Of a stretch of 64,000 bases of DNA, positions 29,897 to 43,576 are shown in pieces (position 1 is the first letter of the stretch; each line of letters starts with the position of its first letter). Position numbers and translations under genes: made by a program. The stretch is from Tardiphaga sp. 709 (GTDB taxonomy: Bacteria > Pseudomonadota > Alphaproteobacteria > Rhizobiales > Xanthobacteraceae), in the NCBI RefSeq assembly GCF_032401055.1, contig NZ_CP135529.1, positions 3,346,501 to 3,410,500 on the forward strand. Direction: 5' to 3'. The notes under the pieces were generated by a model that was not told the DNA's origin, made no database searches, and was given only the letters and a program-made list of their open reading frames with translations.

Positions 29897-30661
29897 TTAG
29901 GCCACGACCGGCAGCAGCATGTCGGCGCCGCTCAGGATCGCCTGTTCGACTTCGAACAGAGCCCGGATCTTCCGCAACGCCTCGTAGTAACGTTTAGCCT
30001 CGACGAGCTCCTCGATCGCATCGAGGCCCTGCAACAATTCCTTGTTGTCGGCCGCCGCGTAGATCGCGCAGCGCTGATGCCCAAACACCGCGCGCGCCTG
30101 TTCGATATCGCCCGGGCTCATCAACATCAGTTGCACAACGAAATAGAGCTGCCGAAGCGGCGTTGTCGCATCGGCGACCTGCATGACCTGGCTTTCCAGC
30201 AGGAAAGTCACGTCGTTGATCAGTTCCAGCGTCACCTTGCGGTCGACCCGCAAAACTGCGCCGTTAATGTAGATTTTCTCGCCCGATCGCAGCGATATGC
30301 ACATTGGCTTCTTCATGCCAGCAGAATCCCGGATGACGATATTGATCGCAACGAGATCGCTCACGTCCGACAACTGCCCTTCCCGGAGGCGCTCGGCCTC
30401 CTTGATGACCCAGAGACCAATCGAAATCAGCTGCGCTCGCAACTGCTCGGGCAGGCCGTTTCGCGGATTCGACAGATCCTGTATGAAGAAAGTCCAGAGA
30501 TTACGGATATAGAGTAAGGCGTCTGTTTCTTCGGATGAAGCAAGCGCACCGCTCTGGATTTTCTGAAGTAGTTTAATTCCGTGATTCAGCGCTTGTTGTT
30601 CCCTGGATCGCGCCTCGCGGCCGCTATCCTCGATTTCCGCGTCGTAACCTGCCAGTGTCAT
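29897..30661 (-). CDS. flaF-flbT: FlaF-FlbT continuous reading frame (fusion)
   Basis: One uninterrupted 254-codon frame covers two flagellin regulators. Residues 1-115 match FlaF (ALLYIRNLWTFFIQDL, LPEQLRAQLISIGLWV, and a C-terminal DLVAINIVIRDSAG). Residues 116-254 match FlbT (ISLRSGEKIYINGAVLRVDR, TTPLRQLYFVVQLM, EAKRYYEALRKIRALF). FlaF promotes flagellin production and export, and FlbT restrains flagellin mRNA translation in Caulobacter. No stop separates the two. A methionine at 30316 could still start FlbT separately, but no good ribosome binding site precedes it. Either a real fusion or a lost stop codon fits. Confidence 0.85.
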   Translation of the reverse strand: MTLAGYDAEIEDSGREARSREQQALNHGIKLLQKIQSGALASSEETDALLYIRNLWTFFIQDLSNPRNGLPEQLRAQLISIGLWVIKEAERLREGQLSDVSDLVAINIVIRDSAGMKKPMCISLRSGEKIYINGAVLRVDRKVTLELINDVTFLLESQVMQVADATTPLRQLYFVVQLMLMSPGDIEQARAVFGHQRCAIYAAADNKELLQGLDAIEELVEAKRYYEALRKIRALFEVEQAILSGADMLLPVVA

Positions 30662-41320: not shown

Positions 41321-42619
41321 TTAGCCGCGGAACAGCGACAGGATGCTCTGGCTGCCGGCATTGGCGATCGACAGCGCCTGAATGCCCAGCTGCTGCTGCG
41401 TCTGCAAAGCCTGGAGGCGGGTCGATTCGGCGTTCATGTCTGCGTCGACGAGCTGGCCGATACCGCGATCGAGCGAGTCAGTCAGGGTCTTGACGAAGTC
41501 CTGCTGCAGACCGATGCGGTTCTTGATGGCGCCGAGGTTGGTGGCGGCATCGGTGATCTTGCTCAGCGCTTTGTCTGTACCCGAGATGTAGGTCTCGAGC
41601 GCAGTCAGATCGGAGGCGCTATCGGTGAACTTCGAGATGTCCAGATTAGCTACGCTGAAGGTGGTCCAGCCACCATTCTTGTAGACGTCGTAGGTCTGGT
41701 CGAGAACGCCTTTTTGGGTCGCCACGTTGGCGGTAGCCGCTGGCTGCAACGCAACGGTACCGCCGGTCGCGCCACCATTGGTGCTGGTGGTAGCGATCGC
41801 GGTCGTGCTGGCGTTCTTGATCTCGAGCGTCTTGCCATCGGCATTGACACCAACAGTAAGGCCCTGAATGCCCAGACCGTTAAGTGCCTTGGCGATGTCC
41901 TGAACCGTGGAGCTCTGCGACACGTTGATCGTGGTCGTCGTGGCAGTTCCACCAAGTGGCGTGACGGCGAAAGCAATCGTGCCCGTGGTCGTGGCGGGCG
42001 GACCAGCCGCACCGACGGTGGCCGGATCGAAAACGAGGGTCGTCGTCGTGGCGGCAGCGTGAGCCGTGATGTAGGCGGCGTCGAGCGTCGTATCGTAGAG
42101 CTTGATGGCGTCGAGGTCGATGGTGAGCGTGTCCACCGAAACGACACCGCCGGCGCGGGAGAAGGACGACACGACCGACTTCGTCGAGTTGTAGGTGGGG
42201 TCCTGTGAGTCGACCGAGATCCAGTTTTCACCGTTGAACACGGCCGAGTCGGCAGTATTCTTCAGCTGCTTCTGAAGTTCGGTGATTTCGCTCTGGATCT
42301 TGGCGCGGTCGACACCCGGGGTACGAGCAGCAACCAGTTTTTCCTTGATCGACGAGACGACGTCGACCGTGCCTTCGAGGCCAGTATACATCGTGTCGAT
42401 GGTCGCAGCGCCGAGACCGAGAGCGTCCTGCACGGCGCCCAGAGCCTGAACGTCCGAACGCATCGTGGTAGCGATCGACCAGTAAGCGGCGTTGTCCGAC
42501 GCGGTCGCCACGCGATAGCCGGTCGAAATACGGTTCATCGTGGTGGAGAGGTTGGCATCGACCGAGCGCAGGGTCTGCAGCGCGGTCATTGCCTGGGAGT
42601 TGGTCATCAAGCTAGACAT
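41321..42619 (-). CDS. Flagellin
   Basis: This 432-residue protein is the filament subunit. The N-terminal D0/D1 part (SSLMTNSQAMTALQTLRSVD, RISTGYRVATASDNAAYWSI) and the C-terminal D1/D0 part (GAIKNRIGLQQDFVKTLTDS, ALSIANAGSQSILSLF) are conserved. The centre (about 170-330) is a Thr/Ala/Gly-rich variable domain with a hook-IN-like TINVSQSSTVQDIAKALNG. Only one flagellin gene is in the window. ATG 42619 lies directly after a hairpin that hides its ribosome binding site. A longer frame upstream runs through the leader and is not used. Confidence 0.96.
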   Translation of the reverse strand: MSSLMTNSQAMTALQTLRSVDANLSTTMNRISTGYRVATASDNAAYWSIATTMRSDVQALGAVQDALGLGAATIDTMYTGLEGTVDVVSSIKEKLVAARTPGVDRAKIQSEITELQKQLKNTADSAVFNGENWISVDSQDPTYNSTKSVVSSFSRAGGVVSVDTLTIDLDAIKLYDTTLDAAYITAHAAATTTTLVFDPATVGAAGPPATTTGTIAFAVTPLGGTATTTTINVSQSSTVQDIAKALNGLGIQGLTVGVNADGKTLEIKNASTTAIATTSTNGGATGGTVALQPAATANVATQKGVLDQTYDVYKNGGWTTFSVANLDISKFTDSASDLTALETYISGTDKALSKITDAATNLGAIKNRIGLQQDFVKTLTDSLDRGIGQLVDADMNAESTRLQALQTQQQLGIQALSIANAGSQSILSLFRG

Positions 42620-42620
42620 C

Positions 42621-42659
42621 GTATGTCCCTTTAATTTGATTGATTTGCTGGGGACATAC
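42621..42659 (-). promoter_or_regulatory. Flagellin leader hairpin hiding the Shine-Dalgarno sequence
   Basis: On the flagellin mRNA, GTATGTCCC (42659-42651) pairs perfectly with GGGACATAC (42629-42621) over 9 bp, around an unstructured AT-rich 21-base loop. The Shine-Dalgarno core AAAGGGA sits at the loop edge and in the right arm, and the stem ends one base before the ATG. Folding would block ribosome entry. FlbT is known in Caulobacter to act on the flagellin leader, so this is a likely target region. The inverted repeat could also be a protein-binding DNA operator. Confidence 0.75.
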
Positions 42660-42675
42660 CGGACTTTCACCGGTA
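42657..42675 (-). promoter_or_regulatory. Competing small hairpin in the flagellin leader
   Basis: TACCGG (42657-42662) pairs with CCGGTA (42670-42675) around a 7-base loop. It shares bases 42657-42659 with the left arm of the Shine-Dalgarno hairpin, so full formation of both is not possible. This could make an on/off switch, though the larger hairpin is longer and probably more stable. Confidence 0.5.
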
Positions 42676-42799
42676 CGAGAGGGCGGCATCATGCCTTTGG
42701 AATGTCGATATCTGATCGACCCAACCTGTCGTGAACTGCAAGCTAGCCGCCAAACCTTACCCAAAGCTGAAGGGAGCGGCGGCTCGTATAGTTAACAGC

Positions 42800-42842
42800 G
42801 ATCATTTGATTCGTCACTTACCTTGTGATGAATCAAATGATC
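42800..42842 (-). other. Long near-perfect hairpin at the fliP 3' end / flagellin leader start
   Basis: GATCATTTGATTCGTCAC (42800-42817) and GTGATGAATCAAATGATC (42825-42842) form an 18-bp stem with one mismatch (a possible G-U pair in RNA) and a 7-base loop. It touches the last base of the fliP stop codon. No T-run follows on the minus strand, so it may be an mRNA-stabilising or processing structure, a Rho-coupled end, or a DNA operator for the flagellin promoter. Confidence 0.8.
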
Positions 42843-43576
42843 TAGAGAAACGACTTCACAAGACCAACTGCGAGCAAATTCCAGCCGTCGATCAACACGA
42901 AGAATAGTACCTTGAATGGTAGCGCGAATACCGTGGGCGGCATCATCATCATGCCCATCGACATCGTCAGTGTTGCGACGATCATGTCGATCACCAGGAA
43001 CGGCATGACGACAAGAAAGCCGATCTCGAATGCGCGGCGAAGTTCCGACACCATGAAAGCCGGGATGATAATTCGCAAATCGACCCGTTGCCCGTCGAGT
43101 TTGACCTTCATACTCTCGGCTGCGAGGTTCTCGAAGGTTTGCAGATCCTTTTCGCGCACGTGCTGCAACATGAAATCCCGGAACGGATCTGTGACCCGCG
43201 AATAGGCTTCCTGTTCGGTGATTTCATTCTTCATCAGGGGCTGAAGGCCGTTTACCCAAGCGCGATCGAAAGTCGGCGCCATCACATAGAATGTGAGAAA
43301 CAACGCGAGGCTGATCATCACGATGTTCGCTGGCGTAGTCTGCAGGCCAAGCCCTGTGCGCAGGAATGAGAGCGCGACGACGAATCGCGTGAAGCTCGTC
43401 ACCATGATGAGCAAGCCCGGCGCCAGTGACAGCACCGTCAGCAGCGCGACCATCTGGATGATTCGGCCGCTGGCACTACCCTCGCCCGGCGGAAGCAAGG
43501 TCGACAGATCCGGAACCTGCGCCATGGCAGCTGTCGGCAGAAGCGCCAGGAGCAGGATCGGAATGATACGCTTCAT
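42842..43576 (-). CDS. fliP: Flagellar export gate protein FliP
   Basis: This 244-residue protein has a signal peptide (IIPILLLALLPTAAMA) and four membrane helices. Family segments are MVTSFTRFVVALSFLRTGLG, the middle NEITEQEAYSRVTDPFRDFM, and the C-terminal MIVATLTMSMGMMMMPPTV. It is the core of the export channel. No fliO is encoded next to it. It overlaps fliL by four bases. A long hairpin begins at its stop codon. Confidence 0.96.
   Translation of the reverse strand: MKRIIPILLLALLPTAAMAQVPDLSTLLPPGEGSASGRIIQMVALLTVLSLAPGLLIMVTSFTRFVVALSFLRTGLGLQTTPANIVMISLALFLTFYVMAPTFDRAWVNGLQPLMKNEITEQEAYSRVTDPFRDFMLQHVREKDLQTFENLAAESMKVKLDGQRVDLRIIIPAFMVSELRRAFEIGFLVVMPFLVIDMIVATLTMSMGMMMMPPTVFALPFKVLFFVLIDGWNLLAVGLVKSFL

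Follow-up and report, generated by a model that had tools for sequence, protein, structure and literature searches.

FlbT acts on flagellin 5' untranslated regions, as described in the cited sections of two papers (PMC4347634, PMC3930126). According to the same sections, in Caulobacter it promotes flagellin mRNA decay or represses translation, and in Brucella it is proposed to be an activator (PMC4347634, PMC3930126); a further paper describes, in the part cited, FlbT together with the flagellin FljJ as a repressor (PMC7591256). This action has been reported since 2000 and its mechanism was called unresolved in a passage of a 2015 review (PMC4347634). In the relevant section of PMC6406911, the three genomes of Tardiphaga available at the time are described as having both lateral and subpolar flagella, and a number of other Rhizobiales genera as having one flagellum only, of the lateral type.

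The locus described here lies in a window of 64,000 nucleotides (the whole stretch of DNA that was analysed) from Tardiphaga sp. 709 and is centred on a flagellin gene of 432 aa (41321..42619, minus strand; Pfam Flagellin_N and Flagellin_C). Two hairpins precede its start codon. The first is a perfect 9-bp inverted repeat formed on the minus strand by GTATGTCCC (42659-42651) and GGGACATAC (42629-42621) with a loop of 21 nt, which includes the GGG of the Shine-Dalgarno stretch AAAGGGAC (42625..42632, minus strand) and stops one base 5' of the ATG (42619-42617). The second, also on the minus strand, comprises 6 bp, TACCGG (42675-42670) and CCGGTA (42662-42657), with a loop of 7 nt, and has GTA (42659-42657) in common with the first. 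Both hairpins and their three common bases had been reported in a preliminary description of this DNA and are borne out when read on the minus strand. Among 20000 dinucleotide shuffles of the 114-nt leader, 40 gave a hairpin of at least 9 bp on the Shine-Dalgarno, and long frames in the window have such a hairpin at their first ATG in 3 of 80 cases (this one counted, and not every frame being a gene), so the 9-bp hairpin alone is only mildly unusual. It rises above chance because the leader is conserved with covariation in relatives.

The relatives comprise 76 loci from named genomes, found with the window flagellin as query, among them representatives of Tardiphaga, Bradyrhizobium, Bosea, Pseudovibrio, Salinarimonas, Labrenzia, Pannonibacter, Pleomorphomonas, Hyphomicrobium, Thermopetrobacter and Metarhizobium. 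The pattern common to the bases 5' of their start codons is far longer than the two hairpins, and the 9-bp hairpin forms the final helix, P5, of a more extensive leader RNA of about 115 bases and five helices, missed in the preliminary description. From P1 to the ATG it occupies 42617..42733 of the minus strand and is matched in the window by covariance model R1 with 93.0 bits and E 2.5e-23, the window row being itself part of the model. P1 encloses P2 and P3, and is followed by P4 and then by P5, which pairs the Shine-Dalgarno GGG. The positions of the helices, all on the minus strand, were taken from pair counts, with alignment A1 for the 5' arm of P1. P1 (8 bp in the consensus) is formed by a 5' arm at 42725..42732 and a 3' arm at 42675..42682, with one C-C mismatch in the Tardiphaga sp. 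709 genome. P2 (42697..42724) has five counted pairs, 42724-42720 with 42701-42697, and a variable tip. P3 (42685..42695) reads GGC-AUGAU-GCC in the window and GGC-AUGAN-GCC in the consensus; the A, U and A of its loop are invariant in all 55 aligned rows and its G is present in 54 of them. P4 (42658..42674; consensus ACCGG/CCGGU) is the hairpin that the preliminary description had called competing. P5 (42623..42657) pairs 42657-42651 with 42629-42623, 7 bp of the 9-bp hairpin being conserved (consensus AUGUCCC/GGGACAU), and holds the GGG of the Shine-Dalgarno stretch in the helix and its AAA in the loop.

Alignment A1 (MAFFT) contains 55 of 73 non-redundant leaders obtained from 109, the 18 left out by the author's choice being those with unclear P1, long P2 or near-duplicates. 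Standard pairs were found in 92.2% of the 1530 pair cells of these 55 rows. Double changes were identified at 20 of 28 pairs, in 185 cells, where the P1 count is tilted towards structure since a complementary 5' arm was chosen when trimming the rows; P2 to P5 were not selected by that trimming. Shuffled alignments gave a mean of 12.2 pairs and 52.0 cells with double changes, and none of 500 reached either observed value; slid versions gave at most 11 pairs and 34 cells. The same five helices were recovered by RNAalifold, with 25 pairs, 17 of them with double changes. Covariation among relatives, which the preliminary description had proposed as a check, is thus present (185 double-change cells vs 52 in shuffles). 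These changes also bear on the reading of the repeats as DNA-level sites for a regulator or promoter, with an incidental RNA fold. A conserved box just upstream is in its favour; it is nevertheless very improbable, given compensatory changes in RNA-type helices with G-U pairs, a fixed place between promoter and ATG and a Shine-Dalgarno within the helix.

P5 is paired in 93.8% of its cells across the 55 rows, and the Shine-Dalgarno reads GGG in 49 rows and GGA in 6. Its covariation is modest, with double changes at 2 of 7 pairs in 7 cells: pair 98-136 is C-G in 45 rows, U-A in 6 (four Bosea loci and two alphaproteobacterial bins) and U-G in 4; pair 94-140 is unpaired in 19 rows and doubly changed in one; in the remaining five pairs the changes are one-sided throughout. 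In the longer window leader the P5 pairs have probabilities of 0.53-0.82, the GGG being unpaired with at most 0.12, and the consensus fold has -29.3 kcal/mol with P5 and -20.9 without it, a contribution of 8.4 kcal/mol. The minimum-energy fold of the window leader (-35.5) differs from the consensus, being without P1, with a longer P4 and with the outer two P5 pairs lost, and in a 101-nt piece GACAU/AUGUC folds over the start codon in place of P5 (z -1.14); single-sequence folding of the window leader is therefore ambivalent. P4 and P5 occupy separate consensus columns and form together, and only their outermost pairs overlap in the window sequence. Being conserved side by side they are not alternatives, in spite of the overlapping helix ends. 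The preliminary description had presented the start site as a translation switch operated by competition between the two hairpins; that competition finds no support, P4 being a neighbour of P5, and what stands is a hairpin hiding the Shine-Dalgarno, conserved across the order and with some covariation of its own. A conserved helix pairing the Shine-Dalgarno is a feature of cis-regulatory RNAs that sequester this site, and it is present here.

Upstream of P1 the window contains a box, TTCAGCTTTGGGTAAGGTT, with a GCTAG-type -10-like site (42738..42771, minus strand), and a similar box was identified in 32 of 63 leaders with a loose pattern for a box like TTAAGCTTCGCGCAAGCTT (shuffled mean 1.5). 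A -10-like site of CTAG or TATA type was found upstream of P1 in 29 of the 63 (shuffled mean 14.9). Together they would put the predicted start at the 5' edge of P1; on this indirect promoter evidence the start does not fall downstream of the left arm of the 9-bp repeat, a position that the preliminary description had named as incompatible with its account. A sigma-54 consensus is present at 42752-42738 and, if used, would begin the RNA inside P1 and would count against the explanation preferred below. The exact consensus was found in only 2 of 63 leaders, the window included, and a sigma-54 promoter was rejected as the main reading. Further upstream, directly 3' of the fliP stop codon, a perfect 12-bp inverted repeat, GATCATTTGATT/AATCAAATGATC, with a 19-nt loop was noted by eye at 42800-42842 of the minus strand, possibly a terminator or a regulator site.

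The distribution of the leader was examined with R1, searches over more than 40 genomes being made under strict filters. In its own genome there is one strong match. A second one (C1:1211506, E 0.04) was rejected, and the two long subpolar-type flagellins of this genome have no R1 match. Of the 297 genomes of the order sample, 77 have R1 matches at E<=0.001, between one and six per genome. Of the 385 genomes of the class sample, 10 have a match at E<=0.01, a strong one being confined to the own genome and a second member of its family. The other eight (E 4e-4 to 7e-3) were judged chance, their number being about twice that expected over 385 genomes; the leader pattern is absent from the five read by eye (L121, L125 and L126 not being among these), and none of the eight has a flagellin-like frame by a simple pattern, a weak control since the window's own flagellin was missed as well. 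No Rfam family reached its gathering score in the window leader or in 20 related loci. Matches to DicF and COG2908 in the leader were far under theirs, and one to BASRCI27 in locus L045, under its own as well, lies upstream of the leader; all three were rejected. No description of this leader RNA was found in the covered parts of the open-access PMC literature, a scope that does not include subscription papers. The best reading is that of an uncatalogued cis-regulatory RNA that would control flagellin translation by hiding the Shine-Dalgarno.

The preliminary description had coupled the switch to a FlaF-FlbT protein, and this fusion is indeed encoded in the same gene cluster (29897..30661, minus strand, about 12 kb from the leader), with Pfam FlaF at residues 6-112 and a lateral-type FlbT at 120-243. 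It is the only fusion in 96 FlbT loci examined; elsewhere the two proteins have a frame each, or no FlaF was identified in the vicinity. A model of the window-type FlbT matched 77 genomes of the order sample with at least 136.7 bits, the next match having 62.3. R1 and lateral-type FlbT were identified together in 75 of the 297 genomes and neither in 218. Exceptions are two genomes with R1 only, G530 (a draft 86% complete) and G672, and two with FlbT only, G517 (where R1 has a match of E 0.0019 in a flagellin leader) and G536 (220 contigs). Another FlbT type alone is present in 133 of the 210 FlbT-bearing genomes of the order, none of which has R1 at E<=0.001. FlbT is thus encoded with the window's flagellar system, its lateral type accompanies 75 of 77 R1 genomes, and it is a plausible partner of the leader RNA. 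This co-occurrence fits a functional pair, and joint inheritance of the flagellar system would give the same; since flagellar systems are inherited whole, and since G672 contains P1-P4 without a FlbT match, the coupling is something we infer from the distribution.

The P1-P4 part was also modelled alone (R2), its alignment of 63 rows having double changes at 18 of 21 pairs. R2 was found at E<=0.01 in 104 of the 297 order genomes, weak and probably false matches counted, and once in the own genome. At E<=0.001 it was identified in 73 of the 76 named loci, many of which went into the model themselves; L051 and L076 start within the gene, and L086 has no R2 match. Of 40 copies inspected, which the author chose as odd (20) or for diversity (20) and whose shares are therefore not representative, 26 stand ahead of a flagellin frame, 10 of a methyl-accepting chemotaxis protein, 2 of a GGDEF-EAL protein and 1 of a cheA-like frame; the remaining copy (L284, in G621) is followed by a frame that is not a flagellin as read. 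Flagellins were recognised from N-termini read by eye, and the chemoreceptor of L313 by eye only. All 8 receptors tested with Pfam have the receptor signalling domain, and each of the two GGDEF-EAL proteins has both a GGDEF and an EAL domain. In four Rhizobiaceae-like genomes of one family P1-P4 stands without P5 ahead of a receptor heading a cheA-cheR-cheB-cheD cluster (gene names and assignment by reading of the cluster), and the two of these receptors tested with Pfam contain a protoglobin domain. In two other cases (L253/L309 and L257/L310, one genome each) the leader RNA, with P1-P4 and a P5-like pairing by eye, precedes a HAMP-type chemoreceptor adjoining cheA. The PAS-GGDEF-EAL proteins are preceded by P1-P4 in two genomes (L311, L318), the copy in G672, the genome lacking a FlbT match, having 41 bits and E 1.3e-7 and that in G663 being weaker (E 1.2e-4).

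R2 matches at L319, L320 and L321 lie beside or inside unrelated frames and were rejected. A contact of the P3 loop with the AUGU after P4 was considered and dropped because the four che leaders lack AUGU. Two further matches were noted, their neighbouring frames being read by eye: a weak one (L316; 25.7 bits, E 0.0013) ahead of a PilZ-like frame, which may be chance, and one between transposase-like and cheA-like frames (L307), where an insertion may have taken the place of the gene formerly downstream of P1-P4.

The gene set of P1-P4 brings in a metabolite riboswitch as an alternative, where P1-P4 would be the aptamer of an undescribed class that binds a small molecule of the motile-to-sessile change, most plausibly cyclic di-GMP or a related nucleotide, and P5 a plug-in translational expression platform. 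Flagellins, chemoreceptors and two GGDEF-EAL genes come close to the set described for c-di-GMP riboswitches in the cited part of PMC6366702, P1-P4 stands without P5 in the four che leaders and one GGDEF-EAL copy sits in a genome without a FlbT match. Against this, no Rfam riboswitch family is matched, c-di-GMP classes included, such switches rarely control c-di-GMP enzymes according to the same part of PMC6366702, and the GGDEF-EAL cases are just two, one of them at E 1.2e-4; the proposal is rather unlikely. If true, such a riboswitch would govern how flagellin is translated and chemoreceptors are expressed in Hyphomicrobiales, and some of their cyclic di-GMP enzymes as well.

The same copies also bear on a passive or temperature-sensitive structure, with P5 tuning or thermally gating translation and P1-P4 merely stabilising the mRNA. 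Conserved 5' structures often protect mRNA, and start-site hairpins of this length are not rare in the window, as counted above at first ATGs. This reading is improbable in view of the strong covariation of P1-P4, its near-invariant loop bases and the copies at other motility genes that lack P5.

The explanation preferred here, and held with good though incomplete confidence, is a leader RNA masking the Shine-Dalgarno in which P1-P4 would recognise a trans-acting input. Conservation, covariation, the placement of P5 on the Shine-Dalgarno, an occurrence nearly restricted to genomes with lateral-type FlbT and the reuse of P1-P4 were observed; the control of translation by P5 and the sensor role of P1-P4 we infer from them. 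The flagellin mRNA would begin at or just 5' of P1 and carry the conserved leader, with P1, P2 and P3 forming a putative three-way junction and P4 directly after it. P5, the presumed flagellin expression platform, would hide the Shine-Dalgarno by pairing its GGG with AUGUCCC, keeping translation low and leaving the AAA exposed in the loop, and P1-P4 would be a portable recognition module whose trans-acting input moves P5 from its closed to its open state or back. Lateral-type FlbT is the favoured input at the flagellin copies, tentatively and at somewhat less than an even chance; a small molecule, and likewise another protein or an sRNA, is each a lesser possibility, and it is unlikely that there is no input, the structure being passive. 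Both G672 and the range of genes beyond flagellins speak for an input more general than FlbT, and that range would, by analogy, suit a small molecule, cyclic di-GMP for example (compare the cited part of PMC6366702). A five-helix leader with covariation, whose distribution follows that of a single FlbT subfamily, provides the exact RNA to test in tractable rhizobia. Since P1-P4 also precedes chemoreceptor and GGDEF-EAL genes, a single RNA element may link the synthesis of the filament with chemotaxis and with the choice between motile and sessile life, a link that would concern a large soil- and plant-associated order.

Among the known systems, the c-di-GMP riboswitches (GEMM) are similar in forming leaders of motility and chemotaxis genes, as given in the section of PMC6366702 used here. 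They differ in that their covariance models have no match, with the Rfam c-di-GMP models absent from the leader up to E 10, from 9 loci up to E 1 and from 20 loci at gathering score, and in that the present module is also found at GGDEF-EAL genes. The flg-Rhizobiales RNA (RF01736) is likewise a candidate structured RNA associated with flagellar genes in Rhizobiales, and is listed in the cited part of PMC2864571, but the leader differs from it in sequence and structure, and its covariance model has no match in 42560-42860 of the window up to E 10. A copy of RF01736 is present elsewhere in the own genome (C1:1576760-1576894, positions 2761-2895 of L157), in the subpolar flagellar cluster, with its end inside the frame of a basal-body rod-like gene, at the start of that gene, and the RNA was identified in 13 of 21 genomes searched, all of the window's genus. 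A third comparison is with the FlbT-controlled 5' untranslated regions of Caulobacter fljK and Brucella fliC, whose leaders were compared by description; no strong R1 match was found outside the window's family in the 385 class genomes under strict filters. As in those systems, in the sections describing them (PMC4347634, PMC3930126), the present RNA is an alphaproteobacterial flagellin leader in a genome encoding FlbT; unlike them, the FlbT belongs to the lateral subfamily and is fused to FlaF.
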